Shown here: piece after piece, positions 3,788 to 21,281 of the stretch
How the letters are laid out: every line of letters starts with the position of its first letter
Numbering within the stretch: position 1 is the stretch's first letter
NCBI GenBank assembly: GCA_017527065.1
Contig: JAFXQO010000025.1
Location: 1-64,000 of the forward strand
Source of the DNA: Clostridia bacterium
Lineage (GTDB): Bacteria > Bacillota > Clostridia > Christensenellales > Aristaeellaceae
Length of the DNA stretch: 64,000 bases
Reading direction: 5' to 3'
Program-made: the position numbers and the translations under genes
The notes under the pieces: generated by a model
What the model saw: only the letters and a program-made list of their open reading frames with translations
The model's database searches: none
Told to the model about the DNA's origin: nothing

Positions 3788-3952
3788 GTCAGGGGCCGCA
3801 GCCCCTGACTTTCAATCCGCAGCGCCGGCTTTGCCGGCGCGAGGACGCGAACCAAGTGTTCGCTTCCTTGCGGATTTTCCGCCCGGAAACCGCCGCAGCG
3901 GTTTCAGGAAAATCCGAGGGGGTGTCTGCGAGGGGGAAAAGTTCCCCCTCGC
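3788..3952. repeat. Cluster of four intergenic hairpins between permease and binding-protein genes
   Basis: The spacer holds four perfect stem-loops: 3788-3809 (9-base arms, CGCA loop), 3822-3840 (8-base arms), a nested pair 3872-3915 enclosing 3886-3905 (arms GGATTTTCC and GAAACCGC, CGCA loop) and 3928-3952 (11-base arms). Two of the loops are CGCA. None is followed by a U-run on the minus strand. They look more like REP-type or mRNA-stabilising structures than a terminator. Confidence 0.8.
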
Positions 3953-3959
3953 AATGGCG

Positions 3960-4901
3960 TTAGCCCTTCAGCGAGCCGATCATGACGCCCTTCACAAAGT
4001 ATTTCTGAACGAAAGGATAGAGGATCAGCATCGGCAGGCAGGCGATGAAGATGATGGCGTATTTGGTGGTGAACATCAGGAAGGCCTGGTGCTGCATCAT
4101 GGCGATGTCTTCCTGAGTCATTTGCTGGATGTCCAGCGACTGGGTCTGGTTCTCGATCAGGATCTGCCTCAGGCGCAGCTGCAGCGGCCACTTGGTCTGG
4201 TCGGTGATGTAGATGAAGGCGGTGTACCAGCTGCCCCAGGTGCCCACCGCCGCGTACAGCGCCATGACGGCGATGATCGCGCCGGAGAGCGGCACCGCGA
4301 TGCGCAGGAAGGTCTGCCACTCGCTGGCGCCGTCGATGTAAGCCGATTCGTACACCTCCTGGGGGATCGAGGTCTGGAAGAAGGTGCGGGTGATGACCAG
4401 GTTCGAGTAGCCCACGCCCATGCCCAGGATCATGATCCACCGGGTGTTGATGAGGCCCAGGCTCTTGTTCAGCATGTAGCTGGGGATCAGGCCGCCGGAG
4501 AGGAACATGGTGATGAAGAAATACCAGGTGATGACCACGCGGCCGGGCAGATTCTTTTTTGACAGCGCGTAGGCCGAGGGGATGGTCAGGATCAGCACGT
4601 AGAGGGTGTGCACCACGGTGTAAAAGATGGTATTGCCGTAGCCGATCCAGATGGATTTGGTCTCAAACACCTTCTGGTAGGCCTCGACGGAGAACGTCTT
4701 CGGCCAGAAGTACAGCCGGCCCAGTGCCGCCTCCTCGGGCGTGGCGAAGGACACGATCAGCACGTACCACATGGGGTAGATCATGGTGAGGGTGATCAGG
4801 CCGATGATGAGGATGTTCACCGTGTCGAAGATCACGTCGCCGCGGGAGCGCTTGATGTGATTTTTATGCCGGGCAGGCAGTTTTGCGGGAGCGGTCGTCA
4901 T
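3960..4901 (-). CDS. Sugar ABC transporter permease, LplC/MalG-like
   Basis: A 313-residue inner-membrane subunit with about six membrane segments, starting near residue 25. The EAA loop that contacts the ATPase is seen in the YESAYIDGASEWQTFLRIAVP region, and the protein ends in the KYFVKGVMIGSLKG tail typical of the MalG branch. The ATG at 4901 is preferred over 4925 because GGAAGGGAGG precedes it. It lies 17 bases after the partner permease gene and pairs with that protein as the heterodimeric channel. No ATP-binding subunit is encoded here. Confidence 0.93.
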   Translation of the reverse strand: MTTAPAKLPARHKNHIKRSRGDVIFDTVNILIIGLITLTMIYPMWYVLIVSFATPEEAALGRLYFWPKTFSVEAYQKVFETKSIWIGYGNTIFYTVVHTLYVLILTIPSAYALSKKNLPGRVVITWYFFITMFLSGGLIPSYMLNKSLGLINTRWIMILGMGVGYSNLVITRTFFQTSIPQEVYESAYIDGASEWQTFLRIAVPLSGAIIAVMALYAAVGTWGSWYTAFIYITDQTKWPLQLRLRQILIENQTQSLDIQQMTQEDIAMMQHQAFLMFTTKYAIIFIACLPMLILYPFVQKYFVKGVMIGSLKG

Positions 4902-4918
4902 GTCGTTTCCTCCCTTCC

Positions 4919-5872
4919 TTACCACAGCGCCACGTCGGAGACCTTGCGGGCGATGGTGTTCGTGAGGATGATCAGGACCAGGTTGACGAAGGTGTTGAAC
5001 AGGCCGATGGCGGCGGAGGTATCCCAGTAGGTGGTGGAGCCGCCCGCGCCCAGCGTCAGTTCGTAAACATAAGTGGAAATCACGCGGCTGGCGGAGATGT
5101 TGCGCTGGGTCTGCAGGAGGAATACCTTTTCAAAGCCCACGCCGAGGATGCCGCCCACCCGCAGGATGAGCATGATCACGATGGTGGGCATGATCGTCGG
5201 GATGTTGATGTGCCTGATGATGTCCAGGCGGTTCGCGCCGTCCAGACGCGCCGCCTCGATGAGATCGGGGGAGACGTTGGCCAGGTTCGCCAGGTAGATG
5301 ATCGTGCCCCAGCCCAGGCCCTGCCACACGCCCGACCACACGTACAGGTGGTCGAACACGCTGGGTTTATACAGGAAGGCGACGGGCTCGCCGCCCAGCG
5401 CTTTGATGACGTTGTTTACGATGCCGTCCGACGCGTTGAAGAACATGTGGATCATGGCGCAGACCACAACGGTGGAGATGAAGTGCGGCATGTAGCTGAT
5501 CATCTGCACGGTCTTTTTGAACTTGGCGCTGGTCAGCTCGTTGATCATCAGCGCGAAGATGATCGCGCAGGGGAAGGTGCAGAAAGAATACAGCGATATG
5601 CGCACCGTGTTCCACAGGATCTGCCAGAACATCGGCCGGTTGAAGAACCACTCGAAGTGCTTGAAGCCATACCACGGGCTGCCCAGAATGCCCATCTTGG
5701 GCTTATAGTCTTTGAAGGCGATGACCACGCCGTAAAGCGGAATATAGTGCCAGATGAACGTGGTGACGATGGGGGGCAGGACCAGCAGGTACAGCTGCCA
5801 GTAGCGCTTGAGGCGCCTGACAACATCCGCCCACCAGTCTCCCTTTTTCCGGGTGGCTCCCGCGTTGACCAT
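4919..5872 (-). CDS. Sugar ABC transporter permease, LplB/MalF-like
   Basis: A 317-residue membrane protein with six predicted segments; the first one follows a basic N-terminus (RRLKRYWQLYLLVLPP). The ATPase-contact loop is IEAARLDGANRLDIIRHINIP. It is the first gene of the importer operon, with GGAGG nine bases before the ATG and a consensus promoter at 5956-5984. It forms the transmembrane channel together with the 3960-4901 product. The absence of a nucleotide-binding subunit suggests use of a shared MsmX-type ATPase, as is known for CUT1 importers of Firmicutes. Confidence 0.93.
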   Translation of the reverse strand: MVNAGATRKKGDWWADVVRRLKRYWQLYLLVLPPIVTTFIWHYIPLYGVVIAFKDYKPKMGILGSPWYGFKHFEWFFNRPMFWQILWNTVRISLYSFCTFPCAIIFALMINELTSAKFKKTVQMISYMPHFISTVVVCAMIHMFFNASDGIVNNVIKALGGEPVAFLYKPSVFDHLYVWSGVWQGLGWGTIIYLANLANVSPDLIEAARLDGANRLDIIRHINIPTIMPTIVIMLILRVGGILGVGFEKVFLLQTQRNISASRVISTYVYELTLGAGGSTTYWDTSAAIGLFNTFVNLVLIILTNTIARKVSDVALW

Positions 5873-5955
5873 AACCTATTCCTCCGTTGTCTCCTCTGCG
5901 CAAATTGTTTTTGTTTTTCCGTAAGCGGAGAAACCGCCTCCGTCATGTTGCCATA

Positions 5956-5984
5956 ATTATACAGTGTTCTTTACAGAATGTCAA
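5956..5984 (-). promoter_or_regulatory. Consensus promoter of Lpl-type importer operon
   Basis: Minus strand TTGACA (5979-5984), 17-base spacer, TATAAT (5956-5961): a perfect match to the housekeeping consensus. It lies 84 bases upstream of the first permease start. Confidence 0.92.
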
Positions 5985-6023
5985 CAGTTAGGTGCGGATT
6001 ATTACGGTAAGAATAATAAAGTA

Positions 6024-6066
6024 AATTCCCAAAGAAACTTCCGTATTGGAGCTTGCTTTGGGAATT
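6024..6066 (-). terminator. Stem-loop after GGDEF gene, probable terminator
   Basis: An 11-base perfect inverted repeat (6024-6034 with 6056-6066) with a 21-base loop that can partly extend the stem. On the minus strand it is followed by a U-rich stretch (TACTTTATTATT). It lies 10 bases after the stop codon at 6077. Confidence 0.65.
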
Positions 6067-6076
6067 CAGACTTAGT

Positions 6077-6898
6077 TTATCTGCCTGCTTTGCCGGCCTT
6101 TGCCGCCTTGAGCGCCAGCTTGTCCTCGTACATCCGCCGGTCCGCCTCGGCCAGGACCGCCTCCAGGTCGTAGCCCGCGTCGCCGTAGGCGGCGCCGCAG
6201 GCAATTTCGCATTCGATGCCGTCCTCCACTCGGTTGAGTTCCCGAAGGCCCTCCGCCCATTTCCGGCGCAGCGCTTCCGCTTCCGGCCGGCGCATGTGCA
6301 GCGCCACGACCACGAACTCGTCCCCGCCCACCCGGAAGGGGATCACGTTGCGGGCCTCAATGCGCTTCAGGCTCTCGGCGGCTTTTTTGATCAGCCTGTC
6401 CCCCGCTTCGTGGCCGTAGGTGTCGTTCATGTGTTTCAGGTTATTGACGTCCATATTGAACACGACGATGGCGTTCTGGGTGCGGAACAGGGTCGTTTTC
6501 AGCTCCATAAACTTACCTTTGTTGTACAGGCCGGTCAGGCCGTCGTGCTCCTTCTCGACTTTCAGCGCCTTGGAATAATCCGTTATGTCCCGGAACAGAT
6601 CCATGTACAGGCTGGTATCCACCAGGTGATGGATCTGAAACAGCTCGCCGCCTTCTGAAAACGTGGAGGTGATGACCATGTAGGTCTTCCCGTCGCTTTG
6701 GCGCAGCAGGTCCCAGGCTTCGCTCCGCTGCCCCTCCCGCGCAGGAGGGCAGGCCGCGGCCCAGTTGGTCTTCTCTTTTCCAATAAAAGCGCTCTTCTCA
6801 TCGGCATAGACCACTGCGCCGGAGGCGTCGGTGATCAGGTTGCCGCCAATGTCGTCTCTGAAAAAGCGCAGGATCGCGCTGTCAGCATTCAATCGCAT
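6077..6898 (-). CDS. GGDEF-domain protein, probable diguanylate cyclase
   Basis: A 273-residue protein with a PAS-like N-terminal half (about 1-110) and a C-terminal GGDEF domain. The signature RVGGDEFVVV is intact, as are the DGLTGLYNKGKF entry motif and the NMDVNNLKHMNDTYGHEAGD metal and nucleotide region. This supports synthesis of cyclic di-GMP from two GTP. No RxxD inhibitory site is seen five residues before GGDEF. I chose ATG 6898 because GGAG lies upstream; 6970 is an alternative adding 24 residues. It has no membrane segment, so it is probably cytosolic. It follows guaA, a GTP-pathway gene, which may be coincidence. Confidence 0.88.
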   Translation of the reverse strand: MRLNADSAILRFFRDDIGGNLITDASGAVVYADEKSAFIGKEKTNWAAACPPAREGQRSEAWDLLRQSDGKTYMVITSTFSEGGELFQIHHLVDTSLYMDLFRDITDYSKALKVEKEHDGLTGLYNKGKFMELKTTLFRTQNAIVVFNMDVNNLKHMNDTYGHEAGDRLIKKAAESLKRIEARNVIPFRVGGDEFVVVALHMRRPEAEALRRKWAEGLRELNRVEDGIECEIACGAAYGDAGYDLEAVLAEADRRMYEDKLALKAAKAGKAGR

Positions 6899-13658: not shown

Positions 13659-13711
13659 CGTAAGGTGTGGTTCACAATCTGTAAATTTATGGAAAAGGAG
13701 GCATGAAGACG

Positions 13712-16195
13712 ATGATATTGCCCGGCAAATTGACTCTGGGCTATCTTCAGGAAGACAACCCTCAAAAGTTCTATTTTCGCGTCAGTCCCCTGCTGGTCAA
13801 AGACGAGACCGGCTGCAAACCGGTAGAAAACGTCCGGGAGGACTATCTCGAAGACGGATTTATACGCATTGTACCCGATAAGAATGAAATCAGCCATTTT
13901 AAGACGAGGATGCGCGCCCTCGGCCGGTATTGCCTGCTGGACCTGAGGCGTCATATGGGCGAAAACGATAAAATCCGGCCCAATAAAAACCATTCCGGTG
14001 AAAACGGCGACCGGAACGCCTTCATTGTTTATTCCGACGTCATCGCGGCGGTGCCGCCGCTGTTCATGGCGGAGGCCGTGGAGCCCGACCAGGACGGCTT
14101 GTTTCCCCGGCCCGGCACGCCTTTCGTGGCCGCCCTGCAGGAGGGCGAGATCAAGGGCGTCTACACCTGGGAGCAGCGCGACGGCGCGGCCTGCCTGACC
14201 GGCGCAAACCTGGCCTCCGGCGATCTGGCCGGCGCGGCCGGCAAACTCGTTTCCCTGGCGCTGGAGGAGACCGCCGTAAAAGTGCTCGTGGATCTGGCGG
14301 AATACGGCGTGAAGGCCGCGGAAGAGACTCCGCGCCCTGACGCGCCCGCGCCCGAAAGCGCCCCGAAGCCGGCTGAAAGCCCCCGCGCCGAGCGCGAGCC
14401 CGAAACCGAACCCGAAGCCAGGCCGGAGCCCAAGCCTGAGCGCGCGCCCGCGAAGGCGGCCGAGCCCGAAAAGGAGGAGAGCGTCCCCGAGGACAAGCCC
14501 TGGCTGCAGCATACCACCTTCGTGTTCCCCCGCGTGGTGAGCGCCAAGCTGTCGCCGCGGCGTCAGTCCATGCAGCAGCAGAGCGGCTTCAATCCGCGCC
14601 GCAGCACGGGCATCAAGGACATCATCGACGACATGTGGCGACAGTCCCGGCTGGATCAGCTGGGCCATCCCGTCCCGCCCGAGGCCAGCGGCACGCCCCT
14701 GGTGAGTCCGGTGGACAAGGCCGTGCAGGCCGTGCGGGAGGCCTGGAACCTGCCCGAGGCGCGGGCCAGCCTGGTGTCCGGCCTGCTGAAGCTGGAGGAG
14801 CTGGACGAGGCCCTGGGGGCGAACGGCCAGGGCAGCCCGGCCGATAACCGCGAGCAGCGGGACCGGGAGCAGCAGCTGCGCCGCTTCGAGGCCGACCGGC
14901 TGAAAATTCTCTGCGAGATCGATGAGCTGAAAAAGATGCGCGCCGACAAGCGGGCCGAGCTCATCGACGAGCTGAAACGCGCCCGGGCCGGCGAGATGGC
15001 GCAGCTCGAAAAGCGGAACAAGGCGCTGGCGGAGGAGAAGCGGCGCTGCGAAGAGGAGGCCGAAACCGCCCGCGCCGCCGCCCAGACCGCGTCGAAGGCG
15101 TTCCAGGAGGTCTGCCAGGGGCTGGACGAGCGCATCGCCGAGCAGGCGGCGCTTGGCCGCGCCCGGGATATGATGCTCGCCATGGCCCGGGTGGGCCGCG
15201 AGCCGCGGCGCGAGCCGGAGACGGAAGAGCTTTCCGCGGGCGAACTGATCTCCGCCGTTCGCGTGCGCTTCAATGAGGCCGGCATCGAGCTGGACAACGA
15301 CGAGGCCGTGAACATTTTGGCCTGCTTCACGCTGGGCCGGGTGATCGTCCTGTCCGGCCCGAGCGGCAGCGGCAAAAGCGCCCGCGTGCGCACGCTTGCC
15401 GCGGCGCTGGGCATCGCCGCGCCGGAATACGGCCGTTTCGCCGAGGCGCAGCCCGAGGAAGACTGGGTTTCCCTCGGCCGGGCCGTGGAGGACAGCGCGC
15501 CCAGCGGCGTGCCCCTGCTGCGCCTGCCCGATCTGCGCCGCGTGCTCACCGCGGCGGGAGAGGCCGTGCCCGCATTGCTCATGCTGGACGACGCCAACCG
15601 CGTGCCTGCCGAGCGGTATCTTGACGGCCTGCTCTCCCAGCTGGACGCCGACGCGCCGGGCCGCCTCGCCACCGGGGCGGGAGAGCTGCCCCTCAGCCGC
15701 GCGCTGCGCGTGATGCTCACATTGCGGGACGCCGGGAGCGGCGCGCCTGTGGGGGCGAAGCTGCTGGACCGCGCCTGGCTGATCCGCCTGGCCCCGGAGA
15801 AGGCGGATTCCGCCTGGCAGCCGCGCGTGAAGGCGCAGCCCGCGCCGGAGAAGGCCGTTTCCATGGAGACGCTGAAAAAGGTGTTCGATCCCGCGCGGGA
15901 GGTGCCCGGCGAGATCGTGGAGCGCATGAAGCTGCTGCGCGTCCGGCTGGGTCAGGCGGGCGTGCTGATTTCCCGGCGCGCGCTGGACGACATGTACGCC
16001 TACTGCGCCGCCGTGTCGCCGCTGATGACCTGCGCCCCCGCCCAGGTGCTGGACTATGCCTTCGCCCAGCGGGCCATGCCCACGATCCTGGCCGAAGCCG
16101 GTCTCGACGCGCTCCACGCGCTGCCGCAGCTGATGCCGGACATGCCGCGCTCGCTGGCGCTGCTCACCGCGCCGCTGCCGCTGCCGCCGCTGTGA
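13712..16195 (+). CDS. Large McrB-like AAA+ P-loop protein with coiled coil
   Basis: An 827-residue protein of no family I can name. In order: a unique N-terminal region (1-200); a Pro/Glu-rich low-complexity linker (about 205-262); a short conserved-looking patch; a charged coiled coil (about 380-490); and a P-loop ATPase region. Walker A is LSGPSGSGKSA near 549. Walker B-like ALLMLDDANR near 621 and the sensor-like RVMLTLRD before LLDRAWLIRL resemble McrB/MoxR-type AAA+ proteins (DExNR, ALRRRF). The acidic second Walker B residue is Asp. ATG 13712 is preferred because GGAGG sits 10 bases upstream; ATG 13703 would be one base from it. No nuclease partner lies alongside. Confidence 0.75.
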   Translation: MILPGKLTLGYLQEDNPQKFYFRVSPLLVKDETGCKPVENVREDYLEDGFIRIVPDKNEISHFKTRMRALGRYCLLDLRRHMGENDKIRPNKNHSGENGDRNAFIVYSDVIAAVPPLFMAEAVEPDQDGLFPRPGTPFVAALQEGEIKGVYTWEQRDGAACLTGANLASGDLAGAAGKLVSLALEETAVKVLVDLAEYGVKAAEETPRPDAPAPESAPKPAESPRAEREPETEPEARPEPKPERAPAKAAEPEKEESVPEDKPWLQHTTFVFPRVVSAKLSPRRQSMQQQSGFNPRRSTGIKDIIDDMWRQSRLDQLGHPVPPEASGTPLVSPVDKAVQAVREAWNLPEARASLVSGLLKLEELDEALGANGQGSPADNREQRDREQQLRRFEADRLKILCEIDELKKMRADKRAELIDELKRARAGEMAQLEKRNKALAEEKRRCEEEAETARAAAQTASKAFQEVCQGLDERIAEQAALGRARDMMLAMARVGREPRREPETEELSAGELISAVRVRFNEAGIELDNDEAVNILACFTLGRVIVLSGPSGSGKSARVRTLAAALGIAAPEYGRFAEAQPEEDWVSLGRAVEDSAPSGVPLLRLPDLRRVLTAAGEAVPALLMLDDANRVPAERYLDGLLSQLDADAPGRLATGAGELPLSRALRVMLTLRDAGSGAPVGAKLLDRAWLIRLAPEKADSAWQPRVKAQPAPEKAVSMETLKKVFDPAREVPGEIVERMKLLRVRLGQAGVLISRRALDDMYAYCAAVSPLMTCAPAQVLDYAFAQRAMPTILAEAGLDALHALPQLMPDMPRSLALLTAPLPLPPL

Positions 16196-17212: not shown

Positions 17213-18946
17213 TCAGGCCGGGCTTTCCAGCTTCAGCCGCTCCACCAGCGCGCGGATGTGGGCGCGGGCCTCGCTCTGCTGCGCCCAGGTTTCGTCCTGC
17301 GTGGGGGTCCGGTCGCCCATCAGGCCGATGAACTGGCTCACCTTCAGCCCCAGCGCCTGCTGCATCTCCTGGTCGGAGCCCTTGGGGCTCACCAGGTAAT
17401 AGCACAGAAGCGAATCCTCCTGGCCGATGCGGTGCGCTCGGTCCTCCGCCTGGGAGTGCACCGCTGGCGACCAGTCCAGTTCGCCGAACACCACGCAGGT
17501 CGCCCGCTGCAGGTTGAGTCCGCTGGCCGAGCGCAGCGAGATCACGCACAGGTCGGTCTTGCCCAGCATGAAGGCGTTGAGCGCGGCGTCCTTCTGGGCG
17601 TCCGTCTCCCGGCCCGTGATGAACACGGGGCGGTAAGGCTTCAGTTCCTTCCTGTAAATGTCCATCACCTTGTGATGATGGGCGAAGAGCAGCACCTTTT
17701 CGCCGCCGTCCAGGAGCGTCCTGACGAACGCGCACACATAGGGCGCCTTCGCGCAGCCCGTCGCCTGCCGCTCGTCCTGGGAGATCTGGTCCTCGATCAG
17801 CGCGCGGCGGGATTCGTCCGCTTCGTCCAGCAGGCGCAGGCGGGAGAAGGCGGGGGAGATCATCTCCCGGTAGAGCGCGTCGTCCCAGTCGATTTCCTGG
17901 ACCAGCCGGCGCTTGGGCGGCAGCTGCCTGAGCACGTCCCGCTTTGTGCGGCGCAGCATGAGGCCCTCCTCGCGCAGGTATTCTCCCAGCAGCTCCGGCT
18001 TGGCCACGATGTTGCTGCTGTAGCCGTAGCACCACTCGCGGGTGAAGCTCTCCCAGTCCCCCAGGAAGTGGAAGTCCAGGATGTTCACCACGTTCCAGAT
18101 CTCGCCGCCGTGGTTGTAGATGGGCGTGCCGGACAGGCCGATCACGTTGTCCGCCGCGCTGGAAACGAGGCTCGCCGCGGAGTATTTTTCCGTGCCCGCC
18201 CGCCGCAGCTCCTGGATCTCGTCGAAGATCACCGTGCGGAAATTGAGATCGGGCAGGGCGTCCTTCCAGCCCCGCAGCAGCAGGTAGTGGATGATGTAGA
18301 CGTCCGCTTCGGGGAGCGCGTAGGGCGTGAGCCCGCGGATGACGTGTATGCGCACGCCGCCCTCCAGCCGGAGAAACCGCTCCGTCTCCCGCGCCCAGTT
18401 GCGCGCCAGGTGGGCCGGCACGACCACCAGCGCCGGGAAGCCCGCCGTCGCGGCCAGATACGCCAGCGCCTGCACCGTCTTGCCCAGGCCCATCTCGTCG
18501 GCCAGCAGCGCCCGGTTGCTGCTCAGAAGAAACGCCAGCCCCTGCTGCTGGAAGGGCATCAGCCGTCCCTCGAAGCGGCCCTGGGGCGGCTCTGCGAACT
18601 GGGGCGCGCGCAGCTGCCTCTGCCGGGCGACGGCGTATTCCCGCGCTTCCTCAAGGGCCTTTCCCCAGCGCTCGCGGTCGGATTCCTTGATCTCCAGGGG
18701 ATAGCGCAGCATCAGCCAGTTCAGATCGCCGATGATGCGCCGGTGCGCCGTGAAGCGCGCCACGCCCCGGCCCCGGCCGTCGCAGCCCGGGAACAGCCGT
18801 TTGGCCAGTTCCGTCACGCAGGGCTCGCCCTTGATGGTCCAGCACCTGGCGCGCCGGTTGTAGCTCAGCGTGCCGAAGGTCTTGCCGGTGAAGGCGGGAT
18901 CGCGCAGGTACGCGGGATAAATATCGGGAAAATCATAGTCGTTCAT
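17213..18946 (-). CDS. SNF2-family helicase/ATPase
   Basis: A 577-residue superfamily 2 DNA translocase. Motif I is LADEMGLGKTVQALAYLA, Ia VVVPAHLARNW, II FDEIQEL (DEIQ in place of DEAH), III LSGTPIYN, V SLRSASGLNLQ, and VI QAEDRAHRIGQ. About 110 residues precede the motor and lack a zinc finger or chromodomain I can identify; the C-terminus adds about 50 residues. ATG 18946 overlaps the stop of the upstream nuclease-like gene by four bases, so the products are probably made together. SNF2 proteins with such partners occur in phages and defence loci (for example the DISARM SNF2 subunit). The role here is an inference. Confidence 0.92.
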   Translation of the reverse strand: MNDYDFPDIYPAYLRDPAFTGKTFGTLSYNRRARCWTIKGEPCVTELAKRLFPGCDGRGRGVARFTAHRRIIGDLNWLMLRYPLEIKESDRERWGKALEEAREYAVARQRQLRAPQFAEPPQGRFEGRLMPFQQQGLAFLLSSNRALLADEMGLGKTVQALAYLAATAGFPALVVVPAHLARNWARETERFLRLEGGVRIHVIRGLTPYALPEADVYIIHYLLLRGWKDALPDLNFRTVIFDEIQELRRAGTEKYSAASLVSSAADNVIGLSGTPIYNHGGEIWNVVNILDFHFLGDWESFTREWCYGYSSNIVAKPELLGEYLREEGLMLRRTKRDVLRQLPPKRRLVQEIDWDDALYREMISPAFSRLRLLDEADESRRALIEDQISQDERQATGCAKAPYVCAFVRTLLDGGEKVLLFAHHHKVMDIYRKELKPYRPVFITGRETDAQKDAALNAFMLGKTDLCVISLRSASGLNLQRATCVVFGELDWSPAVHSQAEDRAHRIGQEDSLLCYYLVSPKGSDQEMQQALGLKVSQFIGLMGDRTPTQDETWAQQSEARAHIRALVERLKLESPA

Positions 18947-19326
18947 GGCAAAGCAATCCCCCACAGTCGGTTGAGGGCGACCACCAGCACCGGCTTGCCG
19001 CCCAGCTCTCCCGGCAGGTCGACGCGGGTGTCCACAACCAGGATGAGCGCCTCCAGCGCGTCCTGGGCCAGGTAGCGGCGGCACTGATCCGCCAGGCGGC
19101 GCCTGTCCGGCTTGCCGCGCTTCACCTCGATACCCACCCCGTCCACCAGGAAATCGACGCGGCAGCGCGGGGCCAGGCGCGCCTCGTGCCGCACAACAAA
19201 ACCGCCGTCGTGAAGGGCGGCGGCGATGAGCTCGTGCAGTTGATATTCGCTGTGCGTGAGCGGGATGCGCAGCGTTTCCAGCGCGCGCCGCAGGGCCAGC
19301 AGTTTGTCCGAAAGTTCTCGTGTCAT
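18943..19326 (-). CDS. Small PD-(D/E)XK nuclease-like protein
   Basis: A 127-residue protein. Glu32 (YQLHELI), Asp58 (CRVDFLV), the Glu67-Val-Lys69 triad element (GIEVKRGK) and Gln81 (ADQCRRYL) are spaced as in the restriction-endonuclease fold: helix with Glu, beta-hairpin with Asp and ExK, then a helix with Gln. No separate DNA-binding domain is present. It overlaps the SNF2 gene by four bases and follows the membrane-protein gene by 10. The simplest model is a nuclease guided or powered by the SNF2 motor, for repair or defence. No direct activity evidence exists; I rely on the motif pattern. Confidence 0.75.
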   Translation of the reverse strand: MTRELSDKLLALRRALETLRIPLTHSEYQLHELIAAALHDGGFVVRHEARLAPRCRVDFLVDGVGIEVKRGKPDRRRLADQCRRYLAQDALEALILVVDTRVDLPGELGGKPVLVVALNRLWGIALP

Positions 19327-19336
19327 GGCGATCCGG

Positions 19337-19840
19337 TCAGGAGACGGCCTCGGGGGCGTCGCAGTCCGGGCAGGGCTTGTAGCCGGCGCGCAGCGCCTGG
19401 GCCAGCGTCACGGAAGGCGTGGTGTCCCGCACGTACTTGCACTCCTTCATGTGGTAGTATTTGCCGCCCTGGTTGCAGTACACGATGATCGGCTGGGGCG
19501 TGGGCGTCGGGTCGACGATGATGGCCGTGCGCCGGGGGGTATACACGTCGATGGCCTCCCGGTCGGAGGGCGCTTCGGGGCCGAGCACGTCCACCTGCAG
19601 CCGGTCGCCCACCACGCGCACGCCGCCGGTCTGCCGGGCGGGCGGATCGGTCAGGGGCGTGAGGATGAGCGCCAGCGCCAGCGCGATCAGCGCCGACGCG
19701 CCCACCTTGACGAGGCGGGGCCACCTGGTGCGCGTCCACATGAGGTAAAGACCCAGCGGCGGGCAGAACACAAGGCGCAGTATCACACCGAGGTTTTCAC
19801 GGCGCTTTCTGGCCGCGGCCCGGCTCTTTTTGCTGGACAA
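19337..19840 (-). CDS. Single-pass membrane protein with Ada-like metal-site tail
   Basis: A 167-residue protein starting at a TTG (AAGGA lies upstream). A basic N-terminus (KKSRAAARKRR) precedes two hydrophobic stretches at about 19-35 and 47-63. The C-terminal outer part ends in YHMKECKYV...ALRAGYKPCPDC. The His, Cys and CxxC pattern with GYKPC resembles the zinc site of the Ada N-terminal domain, and a second protein here (40880-41257) has the same tail. It is the first gene of the run leading to the nuclease and SNF2 genes, with gaps of 10 and -4 bases. The function is unknown. Confidence 0.75.
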   Translation of the reverse strand: MSSKKSRAAARKRRENLGVILRLVFCPPLGLYLMWTRTRWPRLVKVGASALIALALALILTPLTDPPARQTGGVRVVGDRLQVDVLGPEAPSDREAIDVYTPRRTAIIVDPTPTPQPIIVYCNQGGKYYHMKECKYVRDTTPSVTLAQALRAGYKPCPDCDAPEAVS

Positions 19841-20677: not shown

Positions 20678-21019
20678 TCACAGCGATTCGATTGACATAT
20701 GGATTCTTTCCAGCACTTCGGCAAGCAAATCATCCGGAAGCGTTTCCACGAAGGCGATATGGCGGGCGTTGTAATCCAGGGATTTGACGTGTTCGCACAG
20801 GATTTCGCCCGTGGTTTTCGTGCGTTCATCCAGCTTGACATGGAGCGGATAGTCTTTGATCTGATTTGTAATGGGACAGAAGATCGCCAGGCCGGTGTAT
20901 CTGTGGAAGCTCTGGTTACTGACGACCAGAGCGGGGCGGCGTCCGGCCTGCTCGTGCCCGGCCTGCGGATTGAAGGTCAGCAAGACGATGTCGCCCTGCG
21001 CGGGGCGGTAGGCGGCCAT
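20678..21019 (-). CDS. mazF: MazF/PemK-type mRNA interferase toxin
   Basis: A 113-residue toxin of the MazF family, which cuts RNA at short motifs. Family features are the start PAQGDIVLLTFNPQAGHEQAGRRPALVVS with the conserved Gly-Asp and RP(A)LV strand, ITNQIKDYPLHV, and the late EHVKSLDYN segment. Length matches. Its ATG shares one base with the stop of the antitoxin gene (TGATG), so synthesis is coupled with the antitoxin made first. It is normally held inactive by the MazE tail. Confidence 0.95.
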   Translation of the reverse strand: MAAYRPAQGDIVLLTFNPQAGHEQAGRRPALVVSNQSFHRYTGLAIFCPITNQIKDYPLHVKLDERTKTTGEILCEHVKSLDYNARHIAFVETLPDDLLAEVLERIHMSIESL

Positions 21020-21261
21020 CAGTCAAACACCTCCAGGCCCACGTCAGCACCGGTGTCAATTTCCGAGGGGACATAATCTCCATGATAGTCCGCGAACAGG
21101 TCGTCGAGCGTTCTGCGCTGCGGGATCTTGCGAAGAATGATCCGGTCTGACTGGACGTCGATCGATACGGCGTCGTTCTCGCAGAGATGGGCGGCGGTCA
21201 GGACGGATTTCGGCAGGCGAATGCCCTGGCTGTTGCCCCAGCGCTGGATCGTGGCTTGCAT
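21019..21261 (-). CDS. mazE: MazE-type antitoxin (AbrB fold)
   Basis: An 80-residue antitoxin. The N-terminal swapped-hairpin DNA-binding domain reads QRWGNSQGIRLPKSVL, and the C-terminal acidic, flexible tail (DDLFADYHGDYVPSEIDTG) is the part that threads into MazF. The start is ATG 21261, with AGGAGGTG seven bases upstream; the in-frame GTG at 21270 lies inside that ribosome site. The MazEF complex usually represses its own promoter, and direct repeats of GGCTATAC lie within the promoter here. Confidence 0.95.
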   Translation of the reverse strand: MQATIQRWGNSQGIRLPKSVLTAAHLCENDAVSIDVQSDRIILRKIPQRRTLDDLFADYHGDYVPSEIDTGADVGLEVFD

Positions 21262-21281
21262 TGCGGTCACCTCCTGGAGAC

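Follow-up and report, generated by a model that had tools for sequence, protein, structure and literature searches.

Several described systems bear on the pair of genes reported here. Stand-alone VRR-NUC proteins, which are similar to Holliday-junction resolvases, cleave four-way junctions and carry a conserved lysine and glutamine, K47 and Q57 (PMC4103454). In prophage Phi1207.3 the VRR-NUC gene orf24 comes after a primase and is numbered directly before the SNF2 gene orf25 (PMC4260502). The archaeal XPB-Bax1 pair, encoded by genes that lie close together, cuts at junctions of double- and single-stranded DNA (PMC7293015), and ZRANB3 is an ATP-dependent structure-specific nuclease, bacterial ZRANB3-like proteins being mentioned in the same paper (PMC5481773). 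Here, a unit of two genes encoding a small PD-(D/E)XK nuclease and an SNF2 translocase was studied, starting from a stretch of 64,000 nucleotides from a Clostridia bacterium of the family Aristaeellaceae (assembly GCA_017527065.1, contig JAFXQO010000025.1, positions 1 to 64,000), the whole of which is termed the window. A preliminary description of the window had placed the two genes in a three-gene run led by a membrane protein, and had suggested a defence or DNA-uptake-linked system. The features concerned are as follows.

17213..18946, minus strand: SNF2 (SF2) ATPase/translocase, 577 amino acids counted from its ATG
18602..18946, minus strand: N-terminal ~115 amino acids of the SNF2 protein, conserved, lying before any Pfam match (none ahead of residue 131)
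18943..19326, minus strand: PD-(D/E)XK nuclease, 127 amino acids, with a 4-base overlap with the SNF2 start
19337..19840, minus strand: membrane protein, 167 amino acids, TTG start, with a 10-base gap to the nuclease gene
19352..19498, minus strand: C-terminal Ada-like Cys/His motif of the membrane protein, a weak PF02805 match under the cut-off

The three open reading frames were confirmed at these positions, in the order membrane gene, nuclease, SNF2 on the minus strand, with spacings of 10 and -4 bases. The nuclease–SNF2 pair resembles VRR-NUC-SNF2, XPB-Bax1 and ZRANB3 in design and is not a member of these systems by the definitions tested here. It shares with the phage VRR-NUC-SNF2 arrangement a small PD-(D/E)XK-type nuclease gene before an SNF2 helicase gene and a conserved lysine and glutamine; however, the two proteins are of 100 and 458 amino acids there and 127 and 577 here, and the pair described here lies on host chromosomes and is often fused. 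The VRR_NUC family was not among the 15 Pfam families matched (E ≤ 0.1) by any of 30 nucleases scanned. Structural matches of the nuclease model included Bax1-entry chains, which at 375–477 residues are far longer than the 127 residues found here, and the motor here is of the SNF2 type, so that the pair did not qualify as XPB-Bax1. ZRANB3 likewise joins an SNF2 motor to a nuclease acting on DNA structures, in its case with dependence on ATP, but it has a C-terminal HNH nuclease in place of the N-terminal PD-(D/E)XK domain seen in seven fusions here, and the pair again fell outside the definition. Among the literature matches listed, no title or opening abstract described the nuclease–SNF2 pair or its chromosomal form.

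The real unit consists of two genes, the 127-residue nuclease and the 577-residue SNF2 translocase, which are overlapping, closely spaced or fused. Across 150 genomes from the family to which the window belongs, the nuclease was found in 106, the motor in 109 and both in 105, the motor being counted at a best match of 5.9e-120 or better; weaker matches in this set were other SNF2 proteins of ~1000 amino acids. The co-occurrence of the two is thus far beyond chance, with the motor present in 105 of 106 nuclease genomes, and the prospect that the families would rarely occur together, raised in the preliminary description as a ground for abandoning its proposal, did not materialize for these two, whereas it did for the membrane protein. 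The genes were adjacent in 97 of the genomes with both, 26 of these 97 having a single frame of at least 700 amino acids. The nuclease was present in 39 of the 50 genera of the family, with one match per genome. All 31 chromosomal loci recovered with flanks had nuclease and motor adjacent on the same strand, nuclease first; note that these loci were fetched via the nuclease and that some are near relatives of one another. Seven of them encode one open frame of 740–760 amino acids, in which the nuclease is N-terminal and is followed by a linker of ~29–56 residues.

Eight genomes with both genes were not counted as adjacent. In three (G559, G562, G576) a gene lies at or near a contig end, in one (G656) nuclease and motor are separated by a 710-base gap, and in another (G675) comEC splits the two. 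In the remaining three (G627, G647, G673) nuclease and motor are unlinked and the contig continues past the flank of the motor where a nuclease would be expected; the stretches fetched around these motors contained no second nuclease. That both genes were kept though unlinked favours a partnership. The nuclease alone was found in G604, and the motor alone in G563 and G601, where it lies at a contig end, and in G615 and G622.

The order was represented by 248 genomes. The nuclease was detected in 27 of them, and exactly these 27 also had the motor (E 2.2e-229 or better); a distant SNF2 protein (9.5e-41) was all that one other genome contained. Nine of 11 genomes of family f23 and three of eight of f17 carried the nuclease. 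A draw of 299 genomes from the phylum returned it from the window's own genome only, together with one weak partial match (E 9.9e-4), and single-protein scans of genome contigs yielded close relatives only.

The 127-residue protein gave no Pfam match at E ≤ 1, and a search of PDB sequences with two nuclease profiles produced one chance-level match (E 0.42) from one profile and none from the other; Foldseek alone found nothing at E ≤ 0.001. The predicted structure, which the preliminary description had named as a check on its assignment, has a restriction-endonuclease (PD-(D/E)XK) fold, with the alpha-beta-beta-beta-alpha-beta core of the superfamily present in the model. Residues E27, D58, E67, K69 and Q81 were invariant in two alignments, one of 31 chromosomal sequences and one of 30 (six chromosomal and 24 viral), and D58, E67 and K69 supply the D ... 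(D/E)xK metal site of the superfamily. The catalytic series proposed from the window, E32, D58, E67-x-K69 and Q81, therefore stands except at its first position, where the E32 column varies and the conserved acid is E27. On the modelled fold the protein is a PD-(D/E)XK nuclease, and cutting activity is predicted for it. By profile it belongs with phrog_5928 (5.2e-19), a viral family of unknown function. In a model of the fused protein the nuclease half was poorly predicted, with a predicted local distance difference test (pLDDT) score mostly below 60, so no domain contacts were read from it. Separately, a Methanophagales archaeon contig (L007, 5635–6276) contains a partial nuclease-like match, 38% over 63 residues, in a locus with no SNF2 match.

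The assignment of the larger protein as an SNF2 motor with its motifs in place was borne out. Its SNF2 domain (PF00176, 1.1e-28) and Helicase_C domain (PF00271, 6.7e-12) both scored above the Pfam cut-off, and by profile it matched phrog_62, DNA helicase (5.8e-90). Patterns written for this analysis found motifs II, III and VI in 26 of 26 sequences and motif I in 25. The N-terminal region ahead of these domains has invariant P, L, G, R, FPG, R, NW and P columns (alignment A3) and is a candidate DNA-structure recognition part; the structural matches of the fused-protein model mainly span residues 235–716 and give this region no assignment. The best NCBIfam matches of the motor were pilus_reg_Snf2 (129 bits against a cut-off of 1100) and a SCO1167-type helicase (127 against 1200), and both identities were rejected since the scores are far under the cut-offs.

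The preliminary description had remarked that a nuclease–SNF2 pair alone is phage-like, and the viral data agree. A tblastn search with the nuclease gave a match in nine phage records, and the next gene was SNF2 in all four examined (Ruegeria 45A6, Pseudomonas LKA5, Arthrobacter Colucci and Tunturiibacter Tunturi_5). A profile scan of IMG/VR returned 28 viral contigs, four near-identical pairs included, and in every one an SNF2 gene follows the nuclease on the same strand. By an eye count, the motor frame lies at most 20 bases from the nuclease or overlaps it in 19 of these, and 246–684 bases on in nine. The neighbours of the viral pairs were also classified, using 140 of 150 proteins (five were the nuclease itself and five of L088 were omitted). 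Among the best 25 of 143 families, the commonest labelled ones were DnaB-like helicase, primase, SSB and PAPS reductase (three proteins each), followed by Holliday-junction resolvase, DNA methyltransferases and portal protein (two each). Several viral pairs thus sit in replication or recombination blocks, the counts being small. The chromosomal proteins belong by profile to the same families, phrog_5928 and phrog_62, and differ in lying on host chromosomes rather than in viruses.

Some phage SNF2 genes have an insert inside the motor, namely L089 (frame 3804–6563) and L079/L080 (4715–7630), which encode 919 and 971 amino acids. The L089 insert interrupts the Walker A region and starts with an intein-like Cys stretch, while that of L079 lies further on; they are probable inteins at two different sites.

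The descent of the motor was examined in a tree of 59 SNF2 proteins, in which the 31 chromosomal sequences formed one clade (100/100) nested among 28 viral ones. The tree was rooted on four named phages, with long branches flagged at that root. Four near-copies (L064, L080, L083, L086) and L005, from the same contig as L057, were left out, and L079 and L089 were represented by one matching piece each. Tree distances for SNF2 and RuvB in the same 27 genomes were correlated (Mantel r 0.75), none of 2000 shuffles reaching this value (maximum 0.41). Family f17 and most genera agreed with RuvB; f23 was split, and the window's family, f1, formed no supported single group. The simplest account, within the phylum surveyed, is one takeover from phage, then mostly vertical descent with scattered losses.

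Ratios of nonsynonymous to synonymous substitution (dN/dS) among four close relatives were 0.14–0.24 for the nuclease and 0.08–0.10 for the motor, so that both are under purifying selection. G114, from the genus of G129, offers a site without the pair: queA-ruvB-ruvA-ruvC stands there beside an L,D-transpeptidase gene, the matched parts being ~330 bases apart, and it is in this place that G129 carries the fused gene. This site alone does not give the direction of the change, gain or loss.

The chromosomal neighbourhood was surveyed with 137 proteins of at least 90 amino acids, up to three genes per side, from 26 of the 31 loci. The commonest families, among the best 25 of 153, were envelope, transport, metabolic and ruvABC genes, and included LysM, YkuD and ABC transporter. 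In five of the 31 loci (L006, L038, L047, L049, L057) a fused gene ends 3–41 bases before ruvC, with ruvA and ruvB following, the row in L049 being cut by the contig end. Other neighbours were a penicillin-binding protein (L130, L135), phosphofructokinase (L133) and Jag (L129). The ruvCAB adjacency hints at the function of the pair; since neighbours differ elsewhere, this link is suggestive and not general.

On balance, we lean slightly towards regarding the pair as a junction-processing helicase–nuclease of phage origin that has been inherited mostly vertically. It would have come from tailed phages, reaching the common ancestor of a small set of related bacterial families, most simply in a single event, with mainly vertical transmission from then on. 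The conserved N-terminal region would guide the SNF2 motor onto branched DNA such as a stalled fork, a D-loop or a Holliday junction; the motor would then travel along the duplex with ATP and bring with it the nuclease, whose metal site of E27, D58, E67 and K69 would cut at the branch point. We infer a physical complex for the unfused form, and for the pair a substrate of this kind and a function in DNA repair or recombination as opposed to restriction. A bolder proposal, plausible and held only tentatively, is that this is the family's own near-core SNF2-PD-(D/E)XK enzyme, derived from a phage recombination module and acting beside, or replacing, RuvABC/RecG-type pathways. If this is true, it would be a bacterial counterpart of XPB-Bax1 or ZRANB3 made of phage parts.

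The original proposal of a three-gene, membrane-anchored defence or DNA-uptake system was largely refuted by distribution and is now most unlikely. In the window the membrane gene is probably cotranscribed with the pair, given the 10-base gap; the trio stays together in the window, L002, L003 and L004, and the membrane gene is under purifying selection there (dN/dS 0.06–0.43). These four loci, all close relatives, are however the only ones of 31 in which it adjoins the pair, and for this reason the three-gene system fails. Of the 248 order genomes, 15 gave any membrane-protein match, many to the C-terminal motif, and these comprised four of the 27 nuclease genomes (G000, G201, G017, G067) against 11 of the 221 without the nuclease. 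A near full-length match was restricted to the window's own genome and G201, whose copies lie on contigs other than that of the pair. As to the outward Ada-like metal site once read into this protein, the match to PF02805 is weak (13.7 bits, with the cut-off at 23; E 0.064). A motif of similar YYH..C...PC..C type ends the L,D-transpeptidase of L005 (4037–6088), and it may be an exported metal-site module of this lineage; a link to the pair through this motif was rejected, as a similar one ends this different exported protein and also turns up in genomes that lack the nuclease. The rarity of the membrane gene near the pair and the similar motif elsewhere led to its being left out of the unit, and it looks like a chance neighbour. 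DNA uptake drew some encouragement from G675 (locus L135, 1392–5989), where a ComEC-type competence gene (PF03772, 3.6e-50), preceded by a penicillin-binding protein gene, stands between nuclease and SNF2 on the same strand, but comEC was beside the pair in just this one of 40 chromosomal stretches searched and the link was dropped.

The host-type character of the commonest neighbours also bears on the possibility that the pair is carried as cargo by a prophage, or by what is left of one, and does not belong to the host, as its widespread phage homologues might suggest. Terminase, portal and capsid families were absent from the best 25 of 78 PHROG families of the chromosomal neighbours, rarer phage genes being possible, and the single clade, near-vertical inheritance and purifying selection likewise make such cargo very improbable. 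The main rival, which we consider unlikely, is a compact restriction-like defence, with a motor that searches incoming DNA and a nuclease that degrades it, in the manner of ATP-dependent restriction or of ZorD. In Zorya type I systems ZorA, ZorB and ZorE are found next to ZorD. ZorD also has SNF2 motor and nuclease in one protein, and the motor matched its PADLOC model at 7.3e-46, but SNF2 matches of this kind can stem from the shared motor core, and the ZorD equivalog in NCBIfam scored only 76 bits against a cut-off of 1500, leaving the protein outside that family. No Zorya family was found for the ten flanking window genes (E ≤ 1e-5), and Zorya, DISARM and Dpd were absent from the 15 PADLOC families that matched the 137 chromosomal neighbours, each matching one to five (E ≤ 1e-10). 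With envelope, transport, metabolic and ruvABC genes as the commonest neighbours, a defence setting of the sort first envisaged was not found. DISARM and Dpd identities for the motor itself were rejected (DpdE 52 bits against 500; DrmD 44 against 950 and 22 against 610). A modification gene was absent from the best 25 of 153 neighbour families, and a single nuclease per genome, its near-vertical inheritance and the carriage of the same pair by phages argue further against restriction. Finally, the pair could serve RNA polymerase or chromosome upkeep with the nuclease as an accessory, since bacterial SNF2 proteins include RapA and a Swi2/Snf2-type helicase of a jumbo phage has been tied to genes for phage RNA polymerase (PMC7824862). 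This is improbable, as the RapA model NF003426 gave only 22.3 bits against 576, no RNA polymerase family was among the best 25 neighbour families, chromosomal or viral, and the invariant nuclease residues would need another reason.

The tempting three-gene interpretation is corrected, and for the viral family phrog_5928 both a constant partner and a fold prediction are now available. What was a helicase–nuclease pair of phages has apparently been domesticated as a widespread chromosomal gene, kept mostly by vertical descent and present in 106 of 150 genomes of the family. If branched DNA is cut, the pair would be a DNA-repair nuclease unnamed in the family libraries used, and its fused versions suit biochemistry.

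Other genes of the window were also noted. By Pfam, the further neighbours of the pair are a MerR regulator, a DnaJ-TPR protein and MazEF. An 830-residue protein at 13703–16195 combines an AAA-type ATPase region with a long, charged central part, its Pfam matches being weak and under the cut-off, and the MazF/MazE toxin–antitoxin pair (PF02452, 1.7e-28; PF04014, 3e-10) occupies 20678–21270.

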